From Paracoccaceae bacterium (GTDB taxonomy: Bacteria > Pseudomonadota > Alphaproteobacteria > Rhodobacterales > Rhodobacteraceae), in the NCBI GenBank assembly GCA_007693835.1, contig RECW01000144.1:1-40222 (forward strand): a stretch of 40,222 bases of DNA, read 5' to 3'. The position numbers and the translations under genes are program-made. This document shows positions 6,391-22,808 of the stretch, piece by piece. The notes under the pieces were generated by a model that was not told the origin of the DNA, did not search any database, and was given only the letters and a program-made list of their open reading frames with translations. Within the stretch, counting starts at the first letter, position 1, and each line of letters starts with the position of its first letter.

Positions 6391-7737
6391 TCAGGCGTCC
6401 TCGGTCTCGTCGGCCGGGCAGCAGCGGTATTCCTGCGCCTTGTCGAGCAGCTCGATCTGGCGTTCGAGCAGCCTGTTCTCCAGCCGCTTGCGTTCGAGCT
6501 CGAGCTTGATCTCCTCCTGCCGGGACGGTTCGCAGACGACGCAGGGGTCGAGGCACCCCTTCACGATGACGGCCGTCGTCGGCAGCACGGTGGTGACCTC
6601 AAAGGAGAGTTCGCGGCGCGCCTCCTCGGTCAGACGTCCGTCGTCGGCGACGAAGCCGGCTCGCGCGAGGTCGGTCATGGTCGCGCGCAGCGCGGTCTGG
6701 CGCTGCTGCACGCTCAGCGGCTGGGGCTGCCGCGCCGCCATCGTCGCCGCCGCCGCGGGCGCCGCCCGGGTGTAGACGCCGTTCGGCGCGATCCGGCTCG
6801 CGACGGCGGAGAGCTCCTTCTCCACGGCGGGGCTCGCCACCACGCCTTCGGCCCTCGCCATGGCGGCGGCGCGGGCGATGGTCTGGCGCTCCAGCCGGTC
6901 CCGCGACGCCGCGAGCACCCCGCTCGGGATGACCGCGACGTCGTCCGACGGAACGAACGCCGCGCGCCTGACCGTGGTGTTCGCCACCGGGTCGACGACC
7001 CGCGCCGTGACGGCCTCGATGGTGAAGCGCGTTGTCTGGGTCTTGTTGACCTGATAGGCGAAGTAGGTGACCGCCTGGCAGCGGTTTTCGTTCGTGATCG
7101 TGCGCGTCGCGCCTTCGTAGCTGCTCTCCGATTCGCCTTCGACCCGCGTCCGGCTCGTCACCTCGCCAACCGACACCGAATTCGCGGCGCGCGTCGCGGC
7201 GACGCTGCGCTCGTGGCTCGATCTGGCGTAGGCTGAGAGGCGGCGCGAGAATTCGTAACTCGATTGCCCGTCGTAATTTCCGCTCGCCCGCACCCTGCCG
7301 CCGGAGAAGAACGCGCCGATCGGCGAATTCGTGCTGGCTTCGCTGGAGAAGCTGCCGGACGACCGTGAGCCCCCTCCTCCCGCATCGACGACGTCAACGT
7401 CGGACATGAAGCTGTCCATGCTCGCCATGTAGTAGGTCTCCTCCGAAGCCTGCTCATGGCGATAGGAGACCTGCGTCTCGCTGTCATAGGTGAAGCGGTT
7501 GCGGCGGTTCTGGGTCACCAGCCGCACCCTCTCGCCGGGCAGCAGCGTGGTGGAGTAGACGAGATCGCCGAGCGCGAGCGGCCCCGGGCAGCGTTCCAGG
7601 ACGGCGGTGATCGAGACCTCCACCGTCACGTCGCCCTGCCGGCGTTCGAGCACGTACTCGAAACGCAGGCGGTCGCAGACGGGTTCGGCGGCGAGATCGG
7701 GGCAGCAGGGCAGATCCTTGGCGTTGATCAGTTCCAT
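6391..7737 (-). CDS. Uncharacterised 448-residue cysteine-containing protein
   Basis: Function not recognised. No signal peptide is seen. Visible parts are: a Cys-rich N-terminus (C11, C12, C21); a beta-rich domain at about 25-110 containing [20 protein letters not shown] and [13 protein letters not shown]; a Gly/Ser-rich flexible stretch at about 118-165; a region rich in Arg, Ser and Thr to about 215; an Ala-rich helical part at about 275-360; then a Cys cluster (C395, C399, C402), a charged coiled coil at about 405-435 and a terminal CC pair (C439, C440). The mix of a flexible linker, a coiled coil and cysteine pairs at both ends suggests an assembly or scaffold protein, but this is inference. 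A GGGGGGGAAA run precedes the ATG. It is flanked by gap and a divergent rluA-type gene and appears monocistronic. Confidence 0.7.
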
Positions 7738-8567: not shown

Positions 8568-9149
8568 TCAGGCGGGCGGCGCCGCCGGACCGTGCCGCGC
8601 GCGCCATGCCCGCATCGGCGCCTCGCGGCAGTCACCGCAGACGGTGTGGATCACCCGGAAATCGCCGTCGCGGCCGGCGTCGAAGGGGTCGACCCAGCCG
8701 GCGTCGCTCTCCAGCCGGCAGCAGATGCTGCACCGTCGCCGCCCGCGCGCGCCGCGGGCGGCCGGACGGATGCGGACCGTCGCGCCGCCCGGCTCCTCGC
8801 GCTCCAGCGCGTGTTCGACCCGCACCGCGCCGTCGGTCAGCGGCGTCAGCGTCATCACGTACCAGCGCCGCAGCGTGTCGCTGTCGCAGCGGTAGGGCAC
8901 CGATTCGGCTTCGCCCGAGGCGCGCACGCGCATCAGGATCGCGGTCATGAACATCCGCACCGGGTCGCCCGAGATCGCCTGCGCGAGCGGCGCGCCGACG
9001 ACATGGGCCGCGCAGGCGCCGGGGCCGCCGTTGCGGAGCGCGAAGCTGTCCCAGTCCGCCGTGACGGCGGCGATCCGGTCGTTGCGGTCGAGGACGTAGG
9101 CCGTGCGCGGCGCGCAGCCGGACGGCGTTTCGGACGGCGCGGCGGACAT
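8568..9149 (-). CDS. PAS-like domain protein with C-terminal cysteine cluster
   Basis: The protein has 193 residues. Residues about 16-120 have PAS-like character (YVLDRNDRIAAVTADWDSF, then VVGAPL, then RRWYVMTLTPLTDG). A basic linker (about 122-138) leads to a metal-site-like pattern: C140, C143, C144 and C171-x2-C174. No kinase, HTH or cyclase output domain is present, so it may work through partner binding or zinc- or redox-dependent changes. GGAGGGGA precedes the ATG. It is the last minus-strand gene before the NitT-type ABC operon ends, with 81 bases between its start and the upstream ATPase stop, so it could be read from that operon. Function unknown. Confidence 0.65.
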   Translation of the reverse strand: MSAAPSETPSGCAPRTAYVLDRNDRIAAVTADWDSFALRNGGPGACAAHVVGAPLAQAISGDPVRMFMTAILMRVRASGEAESVPYRCDSDTLRRWYVMTLTPLTDGAVRVEHALEREEPGGATVRIRPAARGARGRRRCSICCRLESDAGWVDPFDAGRDGDFRVIHTVCGDCREAPMRAWRARHGPAAPPA

Positions 9150-9230: not shown

Positions 9231-9932
9231 TTACGCGGCCGCGTCGGGCGCGGCTCGGAACAGGCCGGCCGCGGCGCGGGCCACCGAGTCGGGGTCGGCG
9301 CGGGCGGCGCGGTCGAGGGGCGAGGCGAAGTCGTGGGCGAGGCGCGCCGGGCGCCCGTCGAGGGCCAGCACCCGGTCGCAGAGCGCCAGCGCCTCGGCCC
9401 GGTCGTGAGTCGCGATCAGCGCCGCGGCCCCCGTGTCGTCGAGCACGCGGAGGATCAGCCGGCGCATCGCGGCGGCGTTGTCGGGGTCGAGCGAGACCAG
9501 CGGCTCGTCCATCAGCAGCAGCGCGGGCCGCACGGCCAGCGCGCGCGCCAGCGCCGCGCGCCGCTGCATCCCGAGCGAGACCTTCTCGGGGTGCTGGTCT
9601 GCCGCGTCGCCGAGCCCGACTTCGGCGAGCAGCGCGCGCGCCCGGTCGAGATCGCCCGCGCCGGGGATCAGGGCGATGTTCTCCGCCAGCGTCCGCCACG
9701 GCAGAAGCCTCGGCGTCTGGAAGATCATCGCGACGCGTCCTTCGGGGCGCTTCACCGAGCCTTCGAAGCCCCGGTCGAGCCCCGCGATGGCGCCGAGCAG
9801 CGTGCTCTTGCCGACGCCCGAGGGGCCGAGCAGCGCCGCCCGCTCGCCCGGCGCCAGGGTGAAGGCGATCGGGCCGAGCACCGTCTCCGGCCCGAAGCGC
9901 CGCGCGCGGATGTCGACGACCAGTCCGCTCAC
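9231..9932 (-). CDS. NitT/TauT-type ABC transporter ATP-binding protein
   Basis: A 233-residue ATPase. The GTG start at 9932 was chosen because it makes a GTGA overlap with the permease stop; an ATG at 9962 would add ten residues. Walker A is LLGPSGVGKSTLL and the Q-loop is AMIFQTPRLLPW. The signature region reads VSLGMQRRAALARAL, with LGMQR where SGGQR is usual. Walker B is LLLMDEPL and the H-loop IATHD. FQTPRLLPWRT is typical of the SsuB/TauB/NitT group. It forms one importer with the permease and binding protein upstream; the substrate is not evident. Confidence 0.85.
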   Translation of the reverse strand: MSGLVVDIRARRFGPETVLGPIAFTLAPGERAALLGPSGVGKSTLLGAIAGLDRGFEGSVKRPEGRVAMIFQTPRLLPWRTLAENIALIPGAGDLDRARALLAEVGLGDAADQHPEKVSLGMQRRAALARALAVRPALLLMDEPLVSLDPDNAAAMRRLILRVLDDTGAAALIATHDRAEALALCDRVLALDGRPARLAHDFASPLDRAARADPDSVARAAAGLFRAAPDAAA

Positions 9933-10702
9933 CGCCGCCACCGCGAGGCCCGCCGCTCCCACGGCTCAAGCAGCGTCCACTCCACCGCGAGCACGACGGC
10001 GATGAAGCCGAAGGCGTAGGCGAGGATCGCCGCGACGTCGAAAAGCTGGAACTGGGCGTAGAGCATGAAGCCGACGCCGTTCGGCCGACCGAGAAGCTCG
10101 ACCACCAGCACGATCTTCCACACCAGCGCGAGCCCGTTGCGCGCGGCGACCGCGAGAAACGGCGCAAGCTGCGGCGCGATCACGTGGCGCAGCCGGTCGT
10201 GGGCCGGCATCGCGTAGAGCGCCGCCATCTCGGCGAGGTCCTTCGACAGCGCCCGCCCGCCTTCGCGCAAGGTGGCCGCGACGTTGGGAATCTTGTTGAT
10301 CGCGACGGCCGCCACCGCGGCGACCTCCGTCAGCCCGAACCAGACGTAGCAGAGGATGATCGTCACCAGCGCCGGCAGGTTCAGGAACAGCGTCAGCCAG
10401 CCGGAGAACAGCCGGTCCGCCGCCCGGCTCATGCCGAGGGCGAGGCCGATCGCCGCCCCGACCGACATCGCGAGGACGAAGGCGGCCGTGACGCGCAACA
10501 GCGTCATGGCGAGGTGGAACAGATAGCCGCCGGAGACGATCTCACGCCCCATCGAGGCCAGAACCGCGAGCGGTCCCGGCAGCAGGTCGCTGTCGAGCGC
10601 CGCGGCGGACCATACCCAGAGGCCGAGCAGCGCGAGCATCCCGAGCGCCGGCGGCGCCAGCCGGACGAGCCGCTCGGGCGCCGCCTCGGCCAGCATCGTC
10701 AT
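9929..10702 (-). CDS. NitT/TauT-type ABC transporter permease
   Basis: A 257-residue integral membrane protein with about six hydrophobic helices, of the SsuC/TauC/NitT type. The cytoplasmic EAA loop is visible as ALYAMPAHDRLRHVIAPQLAPFL. The start MTMLAEAAPERLV at 10702 overlaps the binding-protein stop as ATGA, and its own stop overlaps the ATPase as GTGA, so the three genes are translationally coupled. The long open frame continuing upstream is ignored because it runs antiparallel to the sense of the binding-protein gene. Substrate unknown. Confidence 0.87.
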   Translation of the reverse strand: MTMLAEAAPERLVRLAPPALGMLALLGLWVWSAAALDSDLLPGPLAVLASMGREIVSGGYLFHLAMTLLRVTAAFVLAMSVGAAIGLALGMSRAADRLFSGWLTLFLNLPALVTIILCYVWFGLTEVAAVAAVAINKIPNVAATLREGGRALSKDLAEMAALYAMPAHDRLRHVIAPQLAPFLAVAARNGLALVWKIVLVVELLGRPNGVGFMLYAQFQLFDVAAILAYAFGFIAVVLAVEWTLLEPWERRASRWRR

Positions 10703-11649
10703 TCGGCGAAGACCGCCCGGTCGAAGGGCCCCGACTCGCCTTCGTAGGCGCGGCCGCCGATCTCCAGCATGGTCTCGTGGAGCAGGCGCGCGGCCTCGGT
10801 GTCGGCCTCGGTCCACGGATCGACGACCAGCCCCGCCCGGAAGGCGTCGCGCAACGCCTCGAAGGCGGCGTCGTCCTCGGCCATCATCAGCGGCCGCACG
10901 CGGTCCCACTCGGCGAGATCGTCGCGCAGGATGCGGCCCGCGGCGACCGCCGAGCGGCGGAACCGCGCGATGGCGTCGGCGTCGCTGCGGTCGGCGCGCC
11001 AGAGGAAGCCGATCAGGGGCGGGCTCGGCGCGACGCCGAGGGCGGCGACGGCCGAGTCGACATCCTCGACCGTTTCGGCGCCGACCGCCGAGAGCCGCGC
11101 GGCGAAGTGCCAGTAGGTCGACACGGCGTCGATGGACCCCGCGACGAGCTGCTGCGACAGGAGCGGCGGGGCCCCGGCCACGACGCCCGAGGCGCGGTCG
11201 GGATCGAAGCCGCAGTCGCGCCGCGCGAGCGCGCGGAAGACCAGCCAGCTCTTGTCGAGCGGCCCGCCGACCACGCCGACCTGACGGCCTTCGATGTCGC
11301 AGAGCGTGACGACGCCGCTTTCGGGCCGGGCCATCAGCCGTCCGACGGCGCGGGAATAGGGGAAGTAGCGCACATCGCGCCCCGCCGCGCGCTGGCGGAG
11401 CGCCCAGAACCAGTCCGATACGAAGAGGTCGACGTCGCCCGACTGGAACGCGACCGCCGTCGCGCCGCCGCCGGCGAGCTCGACGGTTTCGAGCCGATAG
11501 CCCTCGGCGGCGTCGAGCCCGTTGTGCGCGATGACGTCCATCAGCCAGTTGACGGTGCCGAATTTCAGCACCGCGACCCGGACGGTGGGCGTCTCTGCGA
11601 AGGCCGCGGGCGCGAGCGCGACGAGGAGGGCGGTCAGCAGGCGGCGCAT
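10699..11649 (-). CDS. ABC transporter substrate-binding protein (NMT1/NitT-like)
   Basis: This 316-residue exported protein has a signal peptide (1 to about 18, ending AFA). The two-lobed NMT1/THI5-like pattern is seen: VRVAVLKFGTVNWLMDVI, GGATAVAFQSGDVDLFVSDWFW, then GRQVGVVGGPLDKSWLVFRALA and AGSIDAVSTYWHFAARL. C115-type and C144-type single cysteines occur, but no lipobox. It lies 4 bases after the DUF3280-like gene and overlaps the permease. Proteins of this class bind small organic ligands (nitrate, sulfonates, pyrimidines). Its place beside a quinoprotein locus suggests a ligand used there, which is inference only. Confidence 0.83.
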   Translation of the reverse strand: MRRLLTALLVALAPAAFAETPTVRVAVLKFGTVNWLMDVIAHNGLDAAEGYRLETVELAGGGATAVAFQSGDVDLFVSDWFWALRQRAAGRDVRYFPYSRAVGRLMARPESGVVTLCDIEGRQVGVVGGPLDKSWLVFRALARRDCGFDPDRASGVVAGAPPLLSQQLVAGSIDAVSTYWHFAARLSAVGAETVEDVDSAVAALGVAPSPPLIGFLWRADRSDADAIARFRRSAVAAGRILRDDLAEWDRVRPLMMAEDDAAFEALRDAFRAGLVVDPWTEADTEAARLLHETMLEIGGRAYEGESGPFDRAVFAE

Positions 11650-11653
11650 GGCG

Positions 11654-12145
11654 TCAGGGCTCCACGAGAATCCGGCGGTTCAGCACGAAATCCATGCCGC
11701 GCCGCCAGCTTTCGTCGGTGTTGCCGCGGATGTCGGCCGATCCGCCGCCGATCAGCGCGCCGGTCGCCGCGTCGCGCAGGTAGACCGAGATGTGCAGGAT
11801 GAGGTTGGAGGTCTTCTGCACCTCGCCGGTGATCGCGACATCCGCGCCGAGGCGCGCGGCGAACTCGCTGTCGCAGCCGTTGCAGTGGGCGAGGTTCTCG
11901 AACCGCGCCGCGTCCGCCGCCACCGGCTCGATGTCGACGAAGGCGAAGCGGCCCGACGCCTCCAGCGTCTCGACCAATTGCTGCTCGAGCATCCGGGCGC
12001 GCGCCTCCTCGGCGTCCTGGTTCCCGCCGAGGCTCATGTCGATGACCTTCATGCCGAAGAACGCCGCCCGCTTCGCTTCTGCGGAGGCTGCGCCGGCTGC
12101 GAGGAAAGCGGCGAGCGCGGCCGCGAGCGCGTTTCGTGTGCACAT
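11654..12145 (-). CDS. DUF3280/DUF2380-like exported protein
   Basis: A 163-residue protein with a signal peptide (1 to about 22, ending ASA). The mature part has MLEQQLVETLEASGRFAFVD, a C-x2-C pair in HCNGCDSEF, GADVAITGEVQKTSNLILHI and GNTDESWRRGMDF. I place it from memory in the DUF3280/DUF2380-type group of uncharacterised proteins that sit beside quinoprotein and ABC genes. The strand pattern recalls lipoprotein-like periplasmic proteins such as CsgG/TolB N-domains. It is the first gene of the minus-strand ABC operon and is divergent from the Lut-like operon. Confidence 0.72.
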   Translation of the reverse strand: MCTRNALAAALAAFLAAGAASAEAKRAAFFGMKVIDMSLGGNQDAEEARARMLEQQLVETLEASGRFAFVDIEPVAADAARFENLAHCNGCDSEFAARLGADVAITGEVQKTSNLILHISVYLRDAATGALIGGGSADIRGNTDESWRRGMDFVLNRRILVEP

Positions 12146-12185
12146 GCGCGCACGATAGGCGAGACGGCGCAGGGCGCAACGCCTC

Positions 12186-12214
12186 TCTCACATTATGAGA
12201 AGACGCGCGCGTCT
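12186..12214. promoter_or_regulatory. Two abutting palindromes in the divergent promoter
   Basis: TCTCACATTATGAGA (12186-12200; 5-bp arms TCTCA/TGAGA) is followed without a gap by the perfect 14-bp palindrome AGACGCGCGCGTCT (12201-12214). They lie 41 bases before the minus-strand operon start (12145) and about 100 bases before the plus-strand operon start (12317). On the minus strand the first palindrome contains CATAAT, a good -10 candidate, and TCAAGC lies 17 bases upstream as a weak -35. TTGACC at 12217-12222 could serve the plus strand. This looks like an operator controlling both operons; the regulator is unknown. Confidence 0.5.
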
Positions 12215-12316
12215 GCTTGACCGCGCCAGACCGCGCCGGCTTGCTGCGCCGAAAAACAGGGCTTACGCCGTTGACGGCTGAGCCCGAGCGAACGGGGCTT
12301 CTGGGGAGGAGCCGGC

Positions 12317-13486
12317 ATGCTGCGCACGGTCCTGACGGCGGCGATCGCGCTGGCGCCGATGGCGGCTTCCGCGGCCGAGGTCGTGTCGGCGGTGCTGCGC
12401 ATCGAGCGCGAGCGGCCGGCCCCCATATCGCGCCTGGAACTGCCCGCCGGCGACGAAGGGTTCATGGGCGCCCTGCTCGCCACGCGCGACAACGAGACGA
12501 CCGGCGGCTTCCTCGGCCACACCTACGTGCTCCACAAGGCCGCCGCCCTGCCCGAAGACGCGACCGCGGCGCTCGACGACCTGATCGAGCAGGGCGCGCG
12601 CTTCATCGTGACCCTCGCCGAGGCCGACGATCTGCTGGCCCTCGCCGACCATGCGGCCGGCCGCGACGTGCTGCTGCTCAACGTCTCGGCGCCGGACGAC
12701 CGGCTGCGCGGCGTGGACTGCCGGGCGAACGTGCTGCACGCGACGCCCTCGCGCCGGATGCTGGCCGACGGGCTGGCGCAGTACCTGCTCTGGAAGCGGT
12801 GGGACCGGTGGGCGCTGGTCCACGGCTCTCACCCCCGCGACCGGGAGAAGGCGGAGGCGCTGCGCGCCGCGGCGCGGCGTTTCGGCGCGCGGATCGTGAG
12901 CGAACTGGCGTTCGAGGACACGGGCGGCGCGCGGCGCAGCGACACCGGCCACGTTCTGGTGCAGCGGCAGATACCGGGCCTGATGCAGGGGCTGCGCGAG
13001 CATGACGTCGTCGTGGTCGCCGACGAATCGCAGGTGTTCGGCGTCCACATGCCCTATCGCGGCTGGACCGCGCGCCCGGTGGCGGGCGACGCGGGGCTCC
13101 GGGCCACGGCGTGGCACCCCGCCCACGAAGGCTTCGGCGCGACCCAGCTTCAGCGCCGGTTCGAGGCGCTGGCGGGGCGGCGCATGACCGACCTCGACTA
13201 CGAGGCGTGGGTGGCGCTGCGCGCCGTCAGCGAGGCGGTGACGCGCACCGACACGGCGGATTTGGCGACGGTCCTCGCCCACCTTCTCAGCGACGACTTC
13301 GAGCTTGCGGCGTTCAAGGGCATGCCGCTCAGCTTCCGCCCCTGGAGCCGGCAGCTGCGGCAGGCGGTGATCCTCGGCGACGGCTTCACGGTGGTCAGCA
13401 TCTCGCCGCAGGAGGAGTTCCTGCACCAGCGCACCCGCCTCGACACGCTCGGCGTGGACGAAGCCGAAAGCGCGTGTCCGCTGTGA
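12317..13486 (+). CDS. Substrate-binding protein of PQQ-dehydrogenase/lanthanide ABC system (LutA-like)
   Basis: A 389-residue exported protein with a signal peptide of about 20 residues (ASA cleavage). It is a periplasmic-binding-protein fold related to branched-chain amino acid receptors: GFMGALLATRDNETTGGFLG, ARFIVTLAEADDLLAL, DRWALVHGSHPRDREKAEAL, HDVVVVADESQVFG. This fits the family described as ABC substrate-binding protein of PQQ-dependent alcohol dehydrogenase systems, whose Methylorubrum relative is LutA. GGGGAGGAG precedes the ATG. It leads the plus-strand operon with the beta-propeller, ATPase and ABC-2 permease. A role in lanthanide uptake is inferred from that context. Confidence 0.85.
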   Translation: MLRTVLTAAIALAPMAASAAEVVSAVLRIERERPAPISRLELPAGDEGFMGALLATRDNETTGGFLGHTYVLHKAAALPEDATAALDDLIEQGARFIVTLAEADDLLALADHAAGRDVLLLNVSAPDDRLRGVDCRANVLHATPSRRMLADGLAQYLLWKRWDRWALVHGSHPRDREKAEALRAAARRFGARIVSELAFEDTGGARRSDTGHVLVQRQIPGLMQGLREHDVVVVADESQVFGVHMPYRGWTARPVAGDAGLRATAWHPAHEGFGATQLQRRFEALAGRRMTDLDYEAWVALRAVSEAVTRTDTADLATVLAHLLSDDFELAAFKGMPLSFRPWSRQLRQAVILGDGFTVVSISPQEEFLHQRTRLDTLGVDEAESACPL

Positions 13487-13527
13487 CCGGCGCGCGCGAG
13501 ACCGGAACACGAAAGGACCGAGGGCGC

Positions 13528-14496
13528 ATGAGAGGCTTTCTGGCGGGGGCGGTCGCCCTTCTGGCGCTCGGGCCGGTCGCCGCGTGGGCGCAGGTGGTCT
13601 TCGTGACCAACGAGAAGGGCAACTCCGTCACGCGCATCGACGTGGCGACGCTGGAGGTGATCGACACCGTGCCGGTCGGCCAGCGCCCGCGCGGGATCAC
13701 GATCAGCAACGACGGCCGGCAGCTTTTCGTGGCCGCCTCCGACGACGACACGGTGCAGGTGTTCGACCCCGAGACCATGCGCCTGATCCACACGCTGCCG
13801 AGCGGGCCGGATCCGGAGCAGTTCGTGCTGCACCCCTCGGGCAATCCGCTGTTCATCGCCAACGAGGACGACAACCTCGTGACCGTGGTCGACGTGGTGA
13901 CGCGCCGGGCGCTCGCCGAGATACCCGTCGGCATCGAGCCGGAGGGCATGGGCATCAGCCCCGACGGGCGCGTGCTGGTGAACACCTCCGAGACCACCAA
14001 CATGGCGCACTTCATCGACACCGAGACGTTCAAGATCTTCCACAACACGCTGGTCGACAGCCGCCCCCGCGTCGCCGAGTTCACGCGGGACGGGTCGCTG
14101 CTGTTCGTGTCGGCGGAGATCGGCGGCACCGTCAGCGTCATCGACCCCGCGAGCGGCGAGATCGTCCACACCATCCGCTTCGCCGTGCCCGGCGTCACGC
14201 CCGAGGCGCTGCAGCCGGTGGGCGTGCGCGTCACGGCGGACGGGTCGCGGGTGTTCGTGGCCCTCGGCCCCGCCAACCGCGTCGCGGTGGTCGACGGCCG
14301 GACCTTCGAGGTGAAGAACTACCTGCTGGTGGGCCAGCGCGTCTGGCAACTCGCGTTCACGCCCGACGAGCGGTATCTCTTCACCACCAACGGCAACTCC
14401 AACGACGTCTCGGTGATCGACGTGGCCGCCGAGCGGGTGATCAAGTCGATCCCCGTGGGCGACCAGCCGTGGGGCGTCGTCGTCTCGCCCAACTGA
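13528..14496 (+). CDS. PQQ-catabolism-associated YVTN beta-propeller protein
   Basis: A 322-residue exported protein with a signal peptide (to about 21, AWA-Q). It has about seven repeats of roughly 42 residues built on VFVTNEKGNSVTRIDVATLEV, IDTVPVGQRPRGITISNDGR and later copies ending IKSIPVGDQPWGVVVSP: a YVTN/NHL-like propeller. The ATG at 13528 follows AAAGGACCGAGGG. Known relatives sit in xoxF, ped and lut loci, and one is part of the lut cluster of Methylorubrum. The mechanism is unknown; a periplasmic docking or metal-binding role is plausible. It is second in the operon, 41 bases after the binding protein. Confidence 0.88.
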   Translation: MRGFLAGAVALLALGPVAAWAQVVFVTNEKGNSVTRIDVATLEVIDTVPVGQRPRGITISNDGRQLFVAASDDDTVQVFDPETMRLIHTLPSGPDPEQFVLHPSGNPLFIANEDDNLVTVVDVVTRRALAEIPVGIEPEGMGISPDGRVLVNTSETTNMAHFIDTETFKIFHNTLVDSRPRVAEFTRDGSLLFVSAEIGGTVSVIDPASGEIVHTIRFAVPGVTPEALQPVGVRVTADGSRVFVALGPANRVAVVDGRTFEVKNYLLVGQRVWQLAFTPDERYLFTTNGNSNDVSVIDVAAERVIKSIPVGDQPWGVVVSPN

Positions 14497-14514
14497 ACCG
14501 GAGAGGAAGCGCCC

Positions 14515-14964
14515 GTGAAGCCCGTCCGCCTCGCCGCCGGCCTCGTCGCCGGCCTCGCGCTCCCCGCGCCCGGCGCCGCCGCGCCGCTCTGCGACGATCT
14601 CGGCTTCGCGGGGCTGCTTGCGGGCTGCAACAAGATGGACCTGCCGCCGCTGACCCTCTCGGCCGGCAAGCCCATCGCGGACGGGCCGCTGGGGCTGTCG
14701 TCGGGCGTCTACTACCGTCTCGACATCATAGCCGACGGCACGCAGGAACTGGGGCTGGTCGGGCCCGACTTCTTCCGCGCCATCTGGGTCGACGAGGTGA
14801 TCGTCAACGACATCGAAGTGCGCCCCATGGGCCTGCACAGCATCGAGTTCGACCGCGCCGGCACGCTGCGGCTGACCTTCATCGCCATCAAGCCCGGCCA
14901 GTACGAACTGAAGATCCCCGGCTCGACCGGCGAGACGCAGCGCGTCGACATCACCATCCGATGA
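14515..14964 (+). CDS. Small exported protein of the Lut-like ABC operon
   Basis: A 149-residue protein with a GTG start at 14515, supported by GAGAGGAAG 8 bases upstream. The signal peptide runs about 1-23. The mature N-terminus has two cysteines (LCDDLGFAGLLAGCNKMDLP) that may form a disulfide. The rest is beta-rich and cupredoxin-like in feel (YYRLDIIADGTQELGL, TLRLTFIAIKPGQYELKIPG). No copper ligand set is complete. The stop overlaps the ATPase start as ATGA. Relatives between propeller and ATPase in lut/ped loci suggest a periplasmic partner of the transporter. Confidence 0.7.
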   Translation: MKPVRLAAGLVAGLALPAPGAAAPLCDDLGFAGLLAGCNKMDLPPLTLSAGKPIADGPLGLSSGVYYRLDIIADGTQELGLVGPDFFRAIWVDEVIVNDIEVRPMGLHSIEFDRAGTLRLTFIAIKPGQYELKIPGSTGETQRVDITIR

Positions 14965-15695
14965 CCGACGCCGCCCCCGCAGCCCTCGAGGTCGACGGCC
15001 TTTCCTTCGCCTACGGCAAGAAGAAGGCGCTCGACGGCGTGTCGTTCACGGCGCCGGCCGGCGCCTTCACGGCGCTGCTCGGCGTCAACGGCGCGGGCAA
15101 GACGACGCTGGTCAATCTCGTCACCCGCCTGTTCGCCGCGCGCGAGGGGCGCATCGCGATCTGCGGCCGCGATCTCGGGTCGGCGCCCGGCGCGGCGCTG
15201 GCGCAGCTCGGCGTGGTGTTCCAGAGCCGGGCGCTCGACCCGAACCTCACCGTGGCGCAGAACGCGGTCTATCACGGCGCGCTGCACGGCATGGGGCGGC
15301 GCGAGGCGCTCTCGCGGGCCGAGGCGACGCTGGCCCGCGTCGGCCTCGCCGACCGGATGCGCGAGCGGGTCGGGCGGCTCTCCGGCGGGCAGCAGCGGCG
15401 GGCGGAGATCGCGCAGGCGCTGCTGCATGGCCCGCGCCTGCTGGTGTGCGACGAGCCGACGACCGGCCTCGACATCGAAAGCCGCGCGGCGATCGTGCGC
15501 GACGTCCATGCGCTGGCGAAGGAGGAGGGGGTGGGCGTGCTGTGGGCGACCCATCTCGTCGACGAGATCGACGCGGAGGACGGCGTCGTCGTGCTTGACG
15601 CCGGCAAGGTCATCGCCGCCGGCCGCGCCGCAGACATCGCCGAAGGCCGACCGCTCGCCGACGCCTTCCTCGCGCTGACGGGGGCCGCGGCGTGA
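14961..15695 (+). CDS. ABC transporter ATP-binding protein, PQQ/lanthanide system (LutE/PedB-like)
   Basis: This 244-residue ATPase of the ABC-2 transporter kind has Walker A LLGVNGAGKTTLV, Q-loop GVVFQSRALDPNLTV, signature RLSGGQQRRAEIAQAL, Walker B LLVCDEPTTGLD and H-loop LWATHLVDEI. The pattern VFQS.ALDPNLTV with HGALHGM fits the PQQ-dependent alcohol dehydrogenase ABC ATPase group. It overlaps its neighbours at both ends (ATGA upstream, GTGA downstream), so it is translationally coupled to the permease. Confidence 0.92.
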   Translation: MTDAAPAALEVDGLSFAYGKKKALDGVSFTAPAGAFTALLGVNGAGKTTLVNLVTRLFAAREGRIAICGRDLGSAPGAALAQLGVVFQSRALDPNLTVAQNAVYHGALHGMGRREALSRAEATLARVGLADRMRERVGRLSGGQQRRAEIAQALLHGPRLLVCDEPTTGLDIESRAAIVRDVHALAKEEGVGVLWATHLVDEIDAEDGVVVLDAGKVIAAGRAADIAEGRPLADAFLALTGAAA

Positions 15696-16501
15696 GCGCG
15701 GCGCGCGGGCGGGCCGGCTGGACGGCGTGCTTCCTCGGCGTCGTGCGGCGCGAGTTGCTGCGGTTCCTGCAGCAGAAGGAGCGGTTTCTCGCCGCCCTCG
15801 TGCGCCCGCTGGTGTGGCTGTTCATCTTCGCCGCGGGCTTCCGGGCGGTGCTCGGCGTGTCGATCATGCCGCCCTACCAGACCTACGTGCTCTACGAGGT
15901 CTACGTGGTCCCCGGCCTCGTTGCGATGACGCTGCTGTTCCAGGGGATGCAGTCCTCGCTTTCGATGGTCTACGACCGCGAGACGGGCACGATGCGGGGC
16001 CTGCTGGTCAGCCCCTATCCGCGCTGGTTCCTGCTGACGGCGAAGCTCTCCGGCGCCGTGCTGGTCGGCGTCGCGCAGGCCTACGCCTTCCTCGGGATCG
16101 CGTGGCTCTACGGCGTGGAGGCGCCGCCGTTGGGGTATCTCACCGTGCTGCCGGCGCTGGCGCTGTCGGGCATGCTGCTGGCGGCGATCGGGCTGTTCCT
16201 GTCCTCGGCGATCCGGCAGCTGGAGAACTTCGCCGGTGTGATGAACTTCGTGATCTTCCCGATGTTCTTCGCCTCCTCGGCGCTCTACCCGCTGTGGCGG
16301 GTGCGCGACGGCAGCCCGCTGCTCGCCAACGTCGCCCTCGCCAACCCGTTCACCCATTGCGTCGAGCTGATCCGCTTCGCGCTCTTCATGCAGGTCAACT
16401 GGCTGTCGCTCGGGGTGGTGCTGGCGATGGGCGGGGCGTTCCTCGCCGCCGCCTTCTGGGCCTACGATCCCGCGCGCGGCCTGATGGCGCGGCGGCGATG
16501 A
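15692..16501 (+). CDS. ABC-2 type permease, PQQ/lanthanide system (LutF/PedC-like)
   Basis: A 269-residue membrane protein with a GTG start overlapping the ATPase stop (GTGA). It has six hydrophobic helices: VWLFIFAAGFRAVL; LVAMTLLFQGM; VGVAQAYAFLGIAWL; LPALALSGMLLAAIGLFL; GVMNFVIFPMFFASSALYPL; and the C-terminal helix near 245-260. The ABC-2 signature region (FPMFFASSALYPLWRV, NPFTHCVELIRFAL) is clear. Known relatives are PedC of Pseudomonas and LutF of Methylorubrum. Substrate and direction are inferred. Confidence 0.92.
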   Translation: MSAARGRAGWTACFLGVVRRELLRFLQQKERFLAALVRPLVWLFIFAAGFRAVLGVSIMPPYQTYVLYEVYVVPGLVAMTLLFQGMQSSLSMVYDRETGTMRGLLVSPYPRWFLLTAKLSGAVLVGVAQAYAFLGIAWLYGVEAPPLGYLTVLPALALSGMLLAAIGLFLSSAIRQLENFAGVMNFVIFPMFFASSALYPLWRVRDGSPLLANVALANPFTHCVELIRFALFMQVNWLSLGVVLAMGGAFLAAAFWAYDPARGLMARRR

Positions 16502-17736: not shown

Positions 17737-18282
17737 TCAGAAGCCCTCGGCCGGCGCCGCCCGTTCAAGCGGCAGGCCGGCGGCGGCCCAGCCGTCCGTG
17801 CCCTCCGGGAACCAGATGACGCGCGCGTGGCCATGTTCCTTAAGCGCGCGTCGGGCGGCGTTCCAGCTCATCCAGCAGTCCGCGAGGCAGAAGAACAGGA
17901 GCGGTCGGCCCTCGGCGGCGAGCGCTTCGAGGGCCGCGCCGAACCGGGCGTCCATCTCGGGGGAGAGCGCCCCGTATCCCGTGTTCGCAAGCCATGTCGC
18001 GCCGGGAATCGTGTCGTGGGGCGGGTCACGCCATATCACGCCCTCCGGCAACCCTTCCGGACGCACGGGTCTCGGCATCACGTCGATGAAGACCGCTTCG
18101 CCCGCGCGCCAGAGCCTTTCGGCCTCGGCGGCGTCCGCCACAACGGCGCCGGTCAGCGTAAGCGGGGTGGGACTGCGGAAGTCGTCCATCCGGTAGCCGT
18201 CCGGCTCCGGCGGCGGCGCGTCGGCCAGCGCAGGGGCGAGGCCGACGGCGAGGAGGGCCGCGATCAGGCGGCCCCCGGTCAC
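17737..18282 (-). CDS. PQQ-catabolism-associated Cys-Trp motif protein (rhodanese-like)
   Basis: A 181-residue protein. The GTG start at 18282 overlaps the xoxJ-like stop as GTGA and gives a signal peptide (to about 20, ALA). The mature part has GYRMDDFRSPTP, AVFIDVMPRPVRPEGL, a rhodanese-like core and the motif LLFFCLADCWMSWNAA. In the family described as PQQ-dependent catabolism-associated CXXCW protein the cysteines precede Trp. Here the spacing read is Cys132-LAD-Cys136-Trp137. A redox or maturation role is likely. It is the last gene of the xoxF-G-J set. Confidence 0.87.
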   Translation of the reverse strand: MTGGRLIAALLAVGLAPALADAPPPEPDGYRMDDFRSPTPLTLTGAVVADAAEAERLWRAGEAVFIDVMPRPVRPEGLPEGVIWRDPPHDTIPGATWLANTGYGALSPEMDARFGAALEALAAEGRPLLFFCLADCWMSWNAARRALKEHGHARVIWFPEGTDGWAAAGLPLERAAPAEGF

Positions 18283-19121
18283 TGGGTGATCACGGCGCGG
18301 CCGAACTCGTCGACCAGCGGCACGCCGAATTCGGTGAGGATCGCGTCGATCTCGGTCTGCTTGCGCCGGATCAGCGCATTGAGTTCGCGTTTCCAGTCGT
18401 CCTCGCCGGCCCGGACGCCCATGGTGATCCGGTAGAACAGGCGCGGCGGCAGCGGCTCGTTCAGAAGCGGGGTGGCGACAAGCGGGATATCCTCCGTCGT
18501 CTTCGCCAGCCAGCCGCCGATGGGACCCCAGACGAAAGCCCCGTCGATTTCGCCGGCGCGCATGTCGTCGACCATCTGCGCCGACGGGTCGTCGTAGCGC
18601 CGGTCGACCATCAGCGCGTAGGGCTTCGCCCTGCCGATCAGCCCATGGCGTGCGAGGTGGTCGGCCGGCGGGCTGCCGGCGACCACGCCGAGCCGCCGCC
18701 CTTGCAGCCGCGGATCCGAGATGGTGTCGACGCCGGCGAGGGGGCCGTCGGCGCGGGTGAGGAACACGAAGGCCGAGGTGTAATAGTGGTTGGTGTTCAG
18801 CACCAGTTCGTGGCCTTGCGAGTAGCCGATGATCACGTCGCACCGCTTCTCGCCGAGGGTCCGGCGGATGAAGCCGGTCGCCTGCGGATACCAGGTGTAG
18901 GCGACCGGGCGGCCGAGCTCGGCTGCGAAGAGTTCTGCGATTCGGTTCTCGAAGCCGCCCCCCTCGCGATGGGAGAACGGCAGGTTCGCCGGGTCCGCGC
19001 AGACGCGGAACTGGGTGTCCGAGACGAGGTCGGCTGTGCGGGCCGCCGCTGGCGCGGCGGCGAACAGCGCGAGGGCCGCCGCGACCAGCGCGGCGCGGCC
19101 CTCAGCCGCCCATGCAGGCAC
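18279..19121 (-). CDS. xoxJ: Quinoprotein dehydrogenase-associated binding protein (XoxJ-like)
   Basis: A 280-residue exported protein of the family-3 binding-protein fold (FRVCADPANLPFSH, ENRIAELFAAELGRPVAYTWYPQ, RCDVIIGYSQG, LGVVAGSPPADHL, GEIDGAFVWGPIGGWLA). The frame is open to a TTG at 19136. GTG 19121 is preferred because GGAG lies 9 bases before it and the signal peptide is then compact (ending AAA). It overlaps the cytochrome gene end by 20 bases. In Methylorubrum, XoxJ binds XoxF and is thought to help activate or mature it. Order xoxF-xoxG-xoxJ is conserved. Confidence 0.88.
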   Translation of the reverse strand: MPAWAAEGRAALVAAALALFAAAPAAARTADLVSDTQFRVCADPANLPFSHREGGGFENRIAELFAAELGRPVAYTWYPQATGFIRRTLGEKRCDVIIGYSQGHELVLNTNHYYTSAFVFLTRADGPLAGVDTISDPRLQGRRLGVVAGSPPADHLARHGLIGRAKPYALMVDRRYDDPSAQMVDDMRAGEIDGAFVWGPIGGWLAKTTEDIPLVATPLLNEPLPPRLFYRITMGVRAGEDDWKRELNALIRRKQTEIDAILTEFGVPLVDEFGRAVITQ

Positions 19122-19614
19122 GTTCGTGCTCCGCAAAGCTCTCCGGCCGATCGGCGCGCTTTGCGGGCCGTCCGCGATCGATGGCGCCGGCGCCGCGGGC
19201 GCGGAGGTAGATCCAGATATCGTCGACGTAGCACATGACGTTCTTGTTCAGGCCGAAGGACGGCATGACGTTCTCGTGCGAGGCGTCGACGTTCTGGATG
19301 CCGGCGGCGACGACGCCGATGAACTCCCAGTAGTCGAGCGCCATCACCGCGTCCTTCAGCGGCGGCGCGTAGGTCGAGCCCATGCCGTCCGGTCCGTGGC
19401 AGACATGGCATTCCGAGTGATATCGGCGGAAGCCGGAGAACGTGTACCAGTCCACCGTGCCGTCTTCGGCGACGTAGAAGGTCGGCGTGCCGTCCACGGT
19501 GAAATGTTTTCCGTCTTCCTGCGAGAAGGCGACCGTGTCGGAGTTCGAAGCGAAGGCGGGGGTGATGGCGAGCAGAACGGCGAGCGCCGTCGCGGCCAGC
19601 TTCGTTGGGGGCAT
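19102..19614 (-). CDS. xoxG: c-type cytochrome, XoxG-like (electron acceptor of XoxF)
   Basis: A 170-residue periplasmic cytochrome. The start at 19614 has AGGGAAGAG upstream and yields a signal peptide (to about 22, AFA). One haem site C69-HV-C72-H73 is present (SECHVCHGPDGMGS), with a probable axial Met117 in ENVMPSFG. The segment between (YAPPLKDAVMALDYWEFIG) matches the cytochrome c-553i/cL-like group that takes electrons from XoxF. A long charged tail (about 140-170) follows. It lies 161 bases downstream of xoxF, with a strong hairpin in between. Confidence 0.9.
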   Translation of the reverse strand: MPPTKLAATALAVLLAITPAFASNSDTVAFSQEDGKHFTVDGTPTFYVAEDGTVDWYTFSGFRRYHSECHVCHGPDGMGSTYAPPLKDAVMALDYWEFIGVVAAGIQNVDASHENVMPSFGLNKNVMCYVDDIWIYLRARGAGAIDRGRPAKRADRPESFAEHERACMGG

Positions 19615-19692
19615 GTCTCTTCCCTGTGATCGAGTGCGCTTTTCTTGTTCTTGGGCGCACCATGGCGCCATCCGCGGGGTTCCTCAACGAGC

Positions 19693-19775: not shown

Positions 19776-21575
19776 TCAGTTCGGCAGCGTGAACACGGTC
19801 AGCTGGCCGCCGAGGGCGGTGTAGTCGCTGAGGCTCGCGTAGCCGCCCACGGCGCCGAGGCCGTCGTTCGGGTTCACGAGGCCCGCCGCGAGGCCGATCC
19901 CGGCCCAGCCGCCGACGCCCGAGTAGACCGCGACGTACTGCTTGCCGCGATGGCTGTAGGTCATCACGTTGCCGATGATGCCCGACGGCGTCTTGAACTG
20001 GTACAGCTTCTCGCCGGTCTCGGCGTCGACCGCCTTCAGGAAGCCCTCCAGCGTGCCGTAGAAAACGACGTCGCCGGCGGTGGCCAGCGCGCCCGACCAC
20101 ACCGAGAACTCCTCGGGGATGATCCAGGCGAACTCGCCCTTGGTGGCGTCCCAGGCGATGAAGTTGCCCATGCCGCCGTGGCTGTTCGGCGCCGGGTACA
20201 TCGAGAGGGTGGCGCCGACGTAGGGCTGGCCGGCCGTGTAGCTGACGCGGAACGGCTCGTAGTCCATGCAGACGTGGTTGGTCGGCACGTAGAACAGGCC
20301 CGTCCGCGGCGAGAAGGCGGCCGGCTGCTGGTCCTTGGTGCCGAGCGCCGCCGGGCAGATGCCGGTGGTGTTGACGTCCTCGCCGCCCGCGCGGGTCGAG
20401 AACGCCTCGACGACGGCCGGGCGCCCGTAGGTCGGCGAGTTCGGGTCCATGTCGACGCCGGTCGTCCAGTTCACCGCGCGGTCGTACTTGTCGGCGAGCA
20501 GCAATTCGCCGGAGACGCGGTCCATGGTGTAGGCGAGGCCGTTGCGGTCGAAGTGGACGAGCAGATGACGCATCTGGCCGTCGATCTCCTGATCGACGAG
20601 GATCATCTCGTTGACGCCGTCGTAGTCCCACTCGTCGTGGGGCGTCATCTGATAGACCCACTTCGCCACGCCGGTGTCGGCGTCACGGGCGAAGATCGTC
20701 ATCGACCAGCGGTTGTCGCCGGGCCGCTGCGCCGGGTTCCAGGTCGAGGGGTTGCCGGTGCCGTAGTAGAAGAGGTTGGTGATCGGGTCGTAGGAGTACC
20801 AGCCCCAGGTCGTCCCGCCGCCGATCTTCCACTGGTCGCCTTCCCAGGTGGCGGTGCCGCTGTCCTTGCCGACGGGCCGGCCGAGGTGTGTCGTCCGCTC
20901 CGGATCCATGAGCGTCTGCTCGTCGGGGCCGGTGGAGTAGGCGCGCCACAGGCGCTCGCCGGTGTTGATGTCGTAGGCGGTGACGTGACCCTGCACGCCG
21001 AATTCGCCGCCGGAGATGCCGACGATGATCTTGTCCTTCACCGGCAGGACCGTCGCGGTGTTGGTCTCGCCCTTGGACGGATCACCGTTCACGGCGCTCC
21101 ACACGACGCGGCCCGACTTGGCGTCGAGAGCGACCACCGTGGTGTCGGCCTGATGCAGGAAGATCTTGCCGTCGGCGTAGGCGGGGCCGCGGTTCACCGT
21201 GTCGCAGCACATCACCGGAATGACTTCCGGATCCTGACGCGGTTCATACTTCCAGAGGATCTTGCCTTCGTTGTTCAGGTCGAGGGCGTAGACCTTGTTC
21301 GGGAACGGCGTGTGGATGAACATCGTGTCGCCGACGACGAGCGGTCCGCCTTCATGCCCGCGCAGCACGCCGGTCGAGAAGGTCCAGGCCACCTGAAGCT
21401 GGCCGACGTTCTCGCGGTTGATCTGGCTCAGGCGCGAGTAGCGGGTGTTGGCGTAGTCTCCGGTCTGGAGCACCCACCCGTTGGGGTTCGACTGGAGCGA
21501 CAGCACCGAGTCGTTCGCAGCCGCCATGCCCGCCATGGCGACGCCGGCCAGGAGGCCCGCGATAAGTTTTTTCAT
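19776..21575 (-). CDS. xoxF: Lanthanide-dependent PQQ methanol/alcohol dehydrogenase XoxF
   Basis: A 599-residue periplasmic quinoprotein that oxidises methanol (and often other primary alcohols or formaldehyde) and passes electrons to cytochrome c. The start at 21575 has GGAGGAAAC upstream; the signal peptide runs to about 20. The eight-bladed propeller shows tryptophan-docking repeats. Key residues seen: the vicinal disulfide Cys123-Cys124 ([10 protein letters not shown]), Glu191 (GGEFGV), Asn275 (GTGNPSTWN) and the catalytic Asp317 followed at +2 by Asp319 (EWDYDGVNE). The extra Asp (DYD rather than the DxA of MxaF) marks lanthanide enzymes. No MxaI small subunit is present. It is followed by xoxG and xoxJ. 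Confidence 0.96.
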
Positions 21576-21588
21576 GTTTCCTCCATGC

Positions 21589-21605
21589 GGGAGCGCCCTG
21601 CTCCC
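21589..21605 (-). promoter_or_regulatory. Hairpin just upstream of the xoxF Shine-Dalgarno
   Basis: On the minus strand GGGAGC, a 5-base loop and GCTCCC form a 6-bp stem ending 4 bases before the GGAGG of xoxF. It sits at the end of a leader of about 140 bases. It may affect ribosome access; there is no direct evidence for regulation. Confidence 0.35.
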
Positions 21606-21725
21606 TTTCCTACCCAGGCTGGCCCCGTTCGGAGACGCGAACGCCTTTCCGGAGCGCGTGTTGTTCGACGGCCAGCCGACCGCCAGGGCGTCGACGCGAG
21701 ACATCGCGGGGGTGACTCCCGCCGG

Positions 21726-21755
21726 ATATGCTAGCGGCCGTTTGATGACGATCAA
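21726..21755 (-). promoter_or_regulatory. Candidate sigma-70 promoter of xoxF
   Basis: On the minus strand TTGATC (plus 21750-21755) is followed after 18 bases by GCATAT (21726-21731), or after 16 bases by TAGCAT. Transcription would start near 21719, giving an mRNA leader of about 140 bases before the ATG at 21575. The -35 lies directly behind the hairpin that ends the upstream metallohydrolase gene. Confidence 0.4.
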
Positions 21756-21785: not shown

Positions 21786-22808
21786 TCACTCCCATTCCAT
21801 CTCGCGGATCGCGACGGTGGCGTTGCGCTCGGCGAAAGCCTCGGTCAGGGCCCAGCCCGGCGGCGTGCGGCGGGCGATGGCGCGCGTGGCCTCCAGCATC
21901 GGCCGTCCTTCGCGCACCGCCTCGCGCGCCGCCTCGCGCAGATGGGCGAGATAGGCGCGGATCGGCGCGGCGGCGTCCGGCCAGGCGTAGGAGACCGGCC
22001 CGTGGCCCGGCACGACGCGCGCCGCCTCGCGGACGGTCAGGTCGTCCAGCAGCGCGATCCAGCCGTTGACCGAGCCGTCCATCGTCGGCAGGTGGCTCAT
22101 GAACACGATGTCGCCGAGGAACCATGTGTCGGTGGCGAGATCGCGCACCGTCAGGTCGTTGTCGGTGTGCGCGACGGGATGCGCCTCCAGCAGCAGCAGC
22201 CGGCCGCCGAGGTCGATCTCGCGCGTCGTGTCCACCGTCTCGTCGACGGCGACGATGCGCGTCGCGCCGATGTCGCCGAAGGCGCGCACGGCGCCCTCGA
22301 TATAGCTGCCGCCGCGCGTCGCCAGCGCCCGGGGAAGGTTGGCGTGGCCGACGACGGTCGCGCCCGCGTCGACGAAGGCGGCGGCGCCCAGCACGTGGTC
22401 GGGGTGCATGTGGGTGAGGATCAGCCAGCGCACCGGCAGGTCGGTGCGCGCGCGGATCGCGGCGAGAAGGTTCCGGCCGTCTTCGTAGGAGCCGCCCGAG
22501 TCGATCACGGCGACCGCCTCGTCGCCGATCACGAACCCTGCGTTGGCGATCGCCCCCGCGTTCCCGGTCGTCGAGAGTTCATGAACGCCGCGCCGAACGA
22601 AGACGCCTGCGGCCACTTCGGTGACGGCCATCTCCGGCGTTTCGCCGGCGCGCACGCACGGCCAGGACTCCGGCCGCCAGCCGGCCGGGAGGGCCTGCGT
22701 CTCGGCGCGGGCGCGGCAGGCCGCGTAATCCGCGCCGCCGGCGCGTCGGTGCGTTTCGCAGGTCGTGGGCGCGGCGGTCAGGCAGGCCGTGAGCAGGATC
22801 TCCCACAT
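21786..22808 (-). CDS. Quinoprotein relay system zinc metallohydrolase
   Basis: A 340-residue metallo-beta-lactamase-fold protein. The zinc motif is H133-M-H135-P-D137-H138 (LILTHMHPDHVLG), with further ligands His214 (VAHTDND), Asp233 (FLGDIVF) and His269 (VPGHGPV). It fits the family named quinoprotein relay system zinc metallohydrolase 2, found beside PQQ dehydrogenases. The N-terminal ~55 residues form a separate four-cysteine segment (C9, C17, C31, C51) resembling the 67-residue gene at 22906. The first residues could act as a signal anchor. It is followed by a hairpin and then xoxF. Confidence 0.88.
   Translation of the reverse strand: MWEILLTACLTAAPTTCETHRRAGGADYAACRARAETQALPAGWRPESWPCVRAGETPEMAVTEVAAGVFVRRGVHELSTTGNAGAIANAGFVIGDEAVAVIDSGGSYEDGRNLLAAIRARTDLPVRWLILTHMHPDHVLGAAAFVDAGATVVGHANLPRALATRGGSYIEGAVRAFGDIGATRIVAVDETVDTTREIDLGGRLLLLEAHPVAHTDNDLTVRDLATDTWFLGDIVFMSHLPTMDGSVNGWIALLDDLTVREAARVVPGHGPVSYAWPDAAAPIRAYLAHLREAAREAVREGRPMLEATRAIARRTPPGWALTEAFAERNATVAIREMEWE

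Follow-up and report, generated by a model that had tools for sequence, protein, structure and literature searches.

What does the ATP-binding cassette (ABC) importer encoded beside the lanthanide-related genes of a Paracoccaceae bacterium carry? The importer operon lies on the minus strand at positions 9231–12145 of the window, that is, of the whole stretch analyzed here, which is one entire contig (G000:C265, 40,222 bases) from an assembly that totals 3.24 Mb and is divided into 280 contigs. The original prediction, made from the sequence, had described it as a second, uncharacterized importer of a small organic ligand, paired with an operon resembling the Lut lanthanide transporter. We assign a probability of roughly 0.82 to the following reading: the operon encodes a PqqT-type importer of finished pyrroloquinoline quinone (PQQ), with the DUF3280 protein as an accessory, and is switched together with the Lut-type transporter and pqqA via a common operator.

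The operon is read from 12145 to 9231 and, according to Pfam profile matches, consists of four genes, all on the minus strand. The first encodes an exported DUF3280 protein with a CNGC pair (11654–12145; PF11684, 158.2 bits at a cut-off of 30.1, covering positions 2–138 of the 138-position profile), followed by a predicted PqqT-family periplasmic PQQ-binding protein of the NitT/TauT fold (10699–11649; NMT1, 25.8 bits at a cut-off of 20.5, and similarity to PqqT), the cognate ABC permease (9929–10702; BPD_transp_1, 66.8 bits), and the cognate ABC ATPase (9231–9932; ABC_tran, 97.1 bits). The DUF3280 and binding-protein genes are separated by 4 bp, the permease start overlaps the stop of the binding-protein gene (ATGA), and the GTG start of the ATPase gene overlaps the permease stop (GTGA); with the starts read from the DNA in this way, both the permease and the ATPase are shorter than their longest open reading frames (ORFs). 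Codon-position G+C is gene-like for the operon genes, and the permease homologs in our alignment (A4, 29 rows) are 47–75% identical to the window permease. Binding protein, permease, and ATPase, which together make up an ABC importer of the NitT/TauT architecture, are thus all present. The tightly packed four-gene operon, the DUF3280-like protein with a cysteine pair, and the promoter region in common with the Lut-like operon were all stated in the original prediction and hold; the pair is C88 and C91, and the shared region is a divergent gap of 171 bp at 12146–12316.

The ligand can be approached through the binding protein. Its AlphaFold model, based on a 53-row alignment (A2) of 49 out of 80 related loci described below, the window, and three other loci, has a predicted local distance difference test score (pLDDT) of 95.3, and its best PDB fold matches are three PqqT entries, with Foldseek E-values from 6.6e-31 to 4.7e-30, compared with 1.8e-14 for the next entry. 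These are 9OOZ (PqqT Y161W with PQQ), 9B1U (PqqT with PQQ), and 9B1V (PqqT with PQQ and Gd3+). The VIA Z is 36.1–37.9 for the PqqT entries (for 9OOZ, Z 37.9, root-mean-square deviation (rmsd) 2.1, 295 aligned residues) versus 24.2 for SsuA. In a phmmer search with the single binding protein, two PqqT sequences were the sole matches (best E-value 1.9e-54, for 9B1U), and the profile of the 53-row family scored PqqT at 342.3 bits versus 30.5 bits for the runner-up among 177,635 PDB sequences. PqqT retains 17 out of 19 invariant family columns and 28 out of 38 that are nearly invariant. The window protein and PqqT of Methylobacterium extorquens AM1 are alike in fold, length, the Asp–Lys pair (D132 and K133 of the window protein), the adjacent Trp, and Trp180; Tyr161 of PqqT is also Tyr in the window protein and is Phe in 40 out of 53 rows. 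Residue K133, aligned with K142 of PqqT, is Lys in all 53 family rows; the latter residue was mutated to Asp (K142D) in an artificial La-metalloprotein built on PqqT (PMC12828617; this and the other articles cited by PMC number were available in excerpt). Unlike the PqqT entry, the window protein is seen within a complete ABC operon, led by the DUF3280 gene and divergent from lut genes.

According to the excerpt of PMC12124388, which cites Ho and Cotruvo (2019), the PqqT of M. extorquens AM1 binds PQQ in the periplasm with a Kd (dissociation constant) of 50 nM and contributes to PQQ retention and to its uptake from outside. The window's binding protein being a homolog of this described protein, the label "uncharacterized" does not hold for it. 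From homology and genomic context, PQQ is most likely the transported ligand. The same predicted cargo links the system to PqqU of Escherichia coli, which, in contrast, is a TonB-dependent outer-membrane receptor and not itself an ABC transporter. The earlier expectation that a small organic ligand linked with the quinoprotein and lanthanide machinery is imported is upheld, with finished PQQ predicted in place of the cofactor precursor or alcohol-derived product that had been suggested.

SsuA, TauA, and NrtA, the binding proteins of NitT/TauT importers, are similar to the window protein in overall fold and ABC architecture, and the latter does match the SsuA-family and NMT1 profiles, as it would if the operon encoded a sulfonate, taurine, or nitrate importer that neighbors the lanthanide genes by chance. 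However, its score against SsuA_fam (TIGR01728) is 23.8 bits, below the curated cut-off of 163.5, it is 14% identical to SsuA in the structural alignment, its genomic company is different, and, in bits, its match to PqqT exceeds that to any other solved structure about elevenfold. Such a cargo was rejected on the SsuA score and on the PqqT match, and we consider this explanation highly improbable, the more so as PqqT accompanies a lanthanide-transporter gene across families (see below). A sulfonate had been named from the beginning as the kind of unrelated substrate that would speak against a lanthanide-linked role; the nearest solved relative binds PQQ.

In the mechanism that we propose, the PqqT protein (10699–11649) would capture periplasmic PQQ, either leaked from the cell's own supply or coming from outside, and the permease (9929–10702) and ATPase (9231–9932) would move it inward over the inner membrane; the inward direction is suggested by the presence of a binding protein and an importer-type permease. 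The importer would be switched jointly with the lanthanide transporter of the divergent Lut-type operon and, within this clade, with PQQ biosynthesis (pqqA) as well, through a TCTCA-N5-TGAGA operator, and by such joint switching the supply of cofactor and metal to XoxF would be adjusted together.

The genomic company of PqqT was studied in two sets. The first comprises the best 80 out of at least 580 relatives from a contig scan and is biased to window-like proteins; together with DUF3280 loci it makes up 113 loci (L040–L152, 2.07 Mb). At least two out of four Lut core genes are present in 69 out of 80 PqqT loci, and in 57 out of 60 when loci of at least 20.7 kb are considered. Judged by the annotated genes, the divergent order of the window is kept in 22 out of 80 loci, with DUF3280 lying between in 14 of these 22, and DUF3280 stands immediately upstream of PqqT, in the same direction, in 16 loci. 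Because this set is biased, a second one, 385 genomes, was drawn evenly from the alphaproteobacteria and searched for PqqT (E ≤ 1e-20, up to five candidates per genome), the LutA/PedA1-like binding protein TIGR03863 (E ≤ 1e-20), the PQQ-dependent dehydrogenases of TIGR03075 (E ≤ 1e-60, up to three), and DUF3280 (family cut-off). PqqT was found in 45 genomes (one match each), TIGR03863 in 55, DUF3280 in 19, and TIGR03075 in 100 (here and below, TIGR03075 counts are among the matches listed). TIGR03863 occurs in 43 out of 45 genomes with PqqT versus 12 out of 340 others (Fisher p about 2e-43). Since the genomes are related, p-values overstate the evidence, and the number of families is a better guide: the 45 PqqT genomes carry 25 family labels (families were read from tables), and in 24 out of 25 at least one genome has both PqqT and TIGR03863. 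The two genes share a contig in 30 genomes, where they are within about 20 kb of each other in 26, 32 kb apart in one, and 141 kb to 3.9 Mb apart in three; in 13 further genomes they are on different contigs. PqqT occurs together with TIGR03075 in 43 genomes and with DUF3280 in 16. TIGR03863 is present in every one of the 19 genomes with DUF3280. A check of neighborhood and co-occurrence with xoxF or lut genes, proposed in the original prediction, thus yields a strong association in both sets.

This association also bears on the exact form of the cargo. Among the 100 genomes with TIGR03075 dehydrogenases, PqqT is present in 41 out of 51 that also have TIGR03863 and in two out of 49 that lack it, so that it tracks the lanthanide transporter more closely than the PQQ enzymes. 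An Asp two residues after the catalytic Asp is a mark of lanthanide-type quinoproteins, and this Asp (motif DxD) is found in all 60 matches to the window xoxF that cover the motif, from 59 loci (43 PqqT and 16 DUF3280 loci), being kept even in distant roseobacter dehydrogenases of about 35% identity. Both observations fit an importer of a PQQ–lanthanide chelate, in which PQQ would serve as a lanthanophore and provide another route for lanthanides in addition to the Lut transporter; so do the existence of a PqqT structure holding PQQ with Gd3+ and the proposal of PQQ as a possible lanthanophore (PMC8969499). However, import of PQQ alone should produce this linkage too in organisms dependent on lanthanide enzymes, and, according to the excerpt of PMC12828617, the PqqT–PQQ complex binds La only at micromolar strength (6 uM). 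We regard the import of a chelate as unlikely and prefer free PQQ. The chelator, one of the ligands put forward in the original prediction, survives in this one form, since PQQ itself can bind lanthanides (PMC8969499).

Do the cells with the importer make PQQ themselves? The synthesis gene pqqC is present in 37 out of 45 PqqT genomes, including that of the window (contig C56), and in 11 out of 35 dehydrogenase genomes without PqqT (35 out of 57 such genomes were searched). The importer thus belongs mainly to PQQ-making cells, a distribution better matched by recapturing or balancing the cofactor than by pure scavenging; scavenging by non-producers only was considered and is not supported by these counts. 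No pqqC match was found in eight PqqT genomes (G399, G156, G226, G322, G338, G435, G457, and G473), and these may rely on an external supply of PQQ; three (G399, G322, and G435) are listed as 100% complete.

PqqT might also act without much transport, chiefly as a periplasmic PQQ reservoir or a chaperone loading XoxF, the ABC part being secondary. It helps to prevent PQQ loss, according to the excerpt of PMC12124388, and XoxJ, another binding-protein homolog, has been proposed to aid the insertion of PQQ and metal (PMC12997753). Moreover, the permease gene of roseobacters is displaced from those of the binding protein and ATPase: in 20 out of 80 PqqT loci no permease match was found within the locus, and the other two genes remain adjacent where the permease is displaced (L089, L093, L098, and other roseobacter loci). 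On the other hand, one clearly matching permease is kept in all 18 genomes searched (14 of those 20, L103 and L104, in which the permease is displaced inside the locus, and controls L074 and L084), with scores of 319–370 bits compared with 90.1 for the next best match, and it lies 2.9–19.4 kb from the binding protein in 15 out of 16 genomes and 130 kb away in L080. Loss of the permease, leaving a binding-protein/ATPase pair without a channel, was accordingly rejected, for the genomes searched, in favor of rearrangement. Selection seems to maintain the complete transporter, and a mainly storing or loading function appears distinctly unlikely compared with PQQ import.

Turning to regulation, the shared promoter region contains a candidate operator of 15 bp, the inverted repeat TCTCA-N5-TGAGA (12186–12200, TCTCACATTATGAGA). 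This is the only perfect copy of the palindrome in the 3.24-Mb genome, where composition predicts 0.4; in the relatives, the chance expectation is about 0.8–2 perfect copies each, assuming 65–70% G+C. As the palindrome was first spotted by eye, only its recurrence elsewhere counts as evidence. The four genomes scanned contain seven perfect copies, one in the window's genome, one in G004, three in Marinibacterium (G547), and two in the same-genus genome G083. In the first three of these genomes, each of the five perfect copies sits at a relevant promoter, namely, in the gap between lutA and DUF3280 (window, Marinibacterium), in the xoxG–xoxF gap (Marinibacterium), and just upstream of pqqA (G004, Marinibacterium). 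One-mismatch sites precede pqqA both in G083 and in the window's genome (contig C56, TCTCATAATATAAGA); G004 has one in the gap separating lutA from DUF3280 (L048), G083 has a further one upstream of DUF3280 (L046), and in Marinibacterium one lies between the xoxF and metallohydrolase genes. Thus, each of the four genomes of the clade has, with at most one mismatch, one site at pqqA and one at the DUF3280 operon. The distances from the site to the pqqA start codon are alike (96, 113, 86, and 112 bp). This suggests a clade-specific regulon uniting PQQ synthesis, PQQ import, and lanthanide transport, in which the importer would be co-regulated with its neighbors. A scan of the shared promoter for sigma-70 elements and terminators gave nothing.

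A single operator for all clades was rejected, as the palindrome is clade-limited and other loci have a different AT-rich repeat in the same gap. The latter, located between lutA and DUF3280 or pqqT in Ancylobacter, Hansschlegelia, Methylopila, and related loci (L082, L083, L088, L090, L092, L096, L121, L122, L130, L131, L145, L149, and L152), combines CTTATTA with a subsequent TTTCTTATG at a spacing of about 11 bp; TTTCTTATG is also present in the gaps of L077, L097, and L124. With at most one mismatch, TTTCTTATG was found in 16 out of 22 gaps tested versus 0.8 in base shuffles, many of these loci being closely related.

The AlphaFold model of the DUF3280 protein (pLDDT 92.7) is nearest to the N-domain of TolB (VIA Z 12.4, rmsd 2.6, 122 aligned residues) and also resembles PelC, CsgG, and LpoB, with Z of about 9–12 over this group. 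Sequence similarity to these four proteins is not significant (best E-value 0.038, for LpoB), and the shared fold carries no evidence for a function in common. Both cysteines of the C88-N-G-C91 pair are conserved in at least 90% of 31 DUF3280 homologs, and R49, K111, S113, R140, and D144 are invariant in these sequences. Given the TolB-N/LpoB/PelC-like fold of the model, DUF3280 would be an exported accessory of the importer, and our guess is that it could serve as a periplasmic docking or scaffold protein. Among 33 DUF3280 loci, xoxF or a TIGR03863-type gene lies in the stretch in 21 and neither in 12, four of the latter being on stretches shorter than 12 kb. Extra DUF3280 copies were observed in L071 (G207:C22, in tandem) and L068 (G507:C1), and neither xoxF nor a lut-like gene was found in these stretches.

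Several observations weigh against the proposed reading. Quinoproteins use PQQ in the periplasm, which leaves its inward movement without an explanation. The window's binding protein is only 37% identical to PqqT. DUF3280 is present in just 19 out of 80 PqqT loci and hence is not obligatory. The pairing of PqqT with the lanthanide transporter is not absolute: 12 out of 55 TIGR03863 genomes have no PqqT, two out of 45 PqqT genomes have no TIGR03863, and two out of 45 have no TIGR03075 dehydrogenase. As for the operator, both perfect copies in G083 lie away from these promoters and were counted as probable chance occurrences; no perfect copy was found in 112 out of 113 loci L040–L152, the exception being Marinibacterium profundimaris (L074), with its lutA/DUF3280 and xoxG–xoxF gaps; even with two mismatches allowed, no site precedes xoxF in the window; and, pqqB having been searched in 12 genomes and found in 11, no site with at most one mismatch precedes it in the seven other Rhodobacteraceae. 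The operator is seen in four related genomes only.

The divergent operon on the plus strand starts with the gene for the LutA/PedA1-like binding protein (12317–13486; TIGR03863, 452.6 bits at a cut-off of 413.6), followed by those for a beta-propeller protein (13528–14496), LutB/PedA2-like by position and recognized by beta-propeller Pfam matches of its translation, a small exported protein without a Pfam match (14515–14964; homologs in 45 out of 80 loci), a LutE/PedB-like ATPase (14961–15695, start inferred from the frame; TIGR03864, 310.4 bits at a cut-off of 302.25), and a LutF/PedC-like ABC-2 permease (15692–16501; TIGR03861, 367.7 bits at a cut-off of 241.35). TIGR03863, TIGR03864, and TIGR03861, whose cut-offs are all passed, are the NCBIfam families of an ABC system named after PQQ alcohol dehydrogenases; transporters of this kind are LutABEF in M. 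extorquens (PMC7391723) and PedA1A2BC in Pseudomonas putida (PMC12997753). The region 12317–16501 is similar to these, as described in the excerpts, in combining a binding protein with a propeller, an ATPase, and an ABC-2 permease from these families, whereas the four-gene importer operon belongs to a different ABC class and has only the promoter region in common with the Lut-like operon. In L044 and L135, pqqT, the permease gene, and the ATPase gene are inside the Lut-like operon, between the propeller gene or the counterpart of the gene at 14515 and the Lut ATPase gene.

Further along, on the minus strand, the window contains genes for a xoxJ-like protein (18279–19136; TIGR03871, 297.2 bits at a cut-off of 212.15), a xoxG-like c-type cytochrome situated between xoxF and xoxJ (19102–19671; Cytochrome_CBB3, 25.8 bits, just below the cut-off of 27), the lanthanide-type PQQ methanol dehydrogenase XoxF with the motif WDYD (19776–21755; TIGR03075, 764.2 bits; the real start is probably downstream of the ORF start), and the quinoprotein relay system zinc metallohydrolase 2 (21786–22808; TIGR04559, 356.5 bits at a cut-off of 280). 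Nothing else in the genome matched TIGR03075 at E ≤ 1e-60 (three out of five candidates were scored). Two other gene-like ORFs of the minus strand, 6391–7737 (448 aa) and 8568–9149 (193 aa), have no Pfam or NCBIfam match. In roseobacter quinoprotein clusters, where one representative per ORF cluster was scanned, genes were observed for a NahK-like hybrid kinase (L102:1789–4053) and for NosP-like and ErdR-like regulators (L099:5846–7033, L113:7267–7968).

PqqT, PqqU, and the Lut/Ped transporters are already described, and the parts of a complete ABC operon with a PqqT-kind protein are ordinary; what is notable is the tie to the lanthanide transporter and the common operator. In the Creative Commons-licensed PMC literature, which leaves most subscription papers outside, we found nothing on a permease and ATPase of PqqT (the 2019 PqqT paper may treat its ABC partners), nothing on DUF3280 with lanthanide genes, and no description of a common operator, no search having been aimed at the operator sequence itself.

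On a wider and rather doubtful reading, PQQ would be a lanthanide-linked currency: the PqqT ABC system would import PQQ or its lanthanide chelate for lanthanide acquisition and sensing, one regulator acting on TCTCA-N5-TGAGA would read cytoplasmic PQQ or lanthanide and set PQQ synthesis, import, lanthanide transport, and xoxF, and DUF3280 would be a dedicated periplasmic partner. At the level of the importer itself, a vague second transporter becomes a named and testable PQQ importer, and DUF3280 gains a context and a fold. In 24 out of the 25 sampled families with the importer it accompanies the lanthanide transporter, and its link to that transporter is closer than its link to the PQQ enzymes. 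In one clade, a short DNA site leads us to expect that the synthesis of PQQ, its import, and the transport of lanthanides are controlled together. The system bears on how XoxF is jointly supplied with both components of its active site, lanthanide and PQQ.

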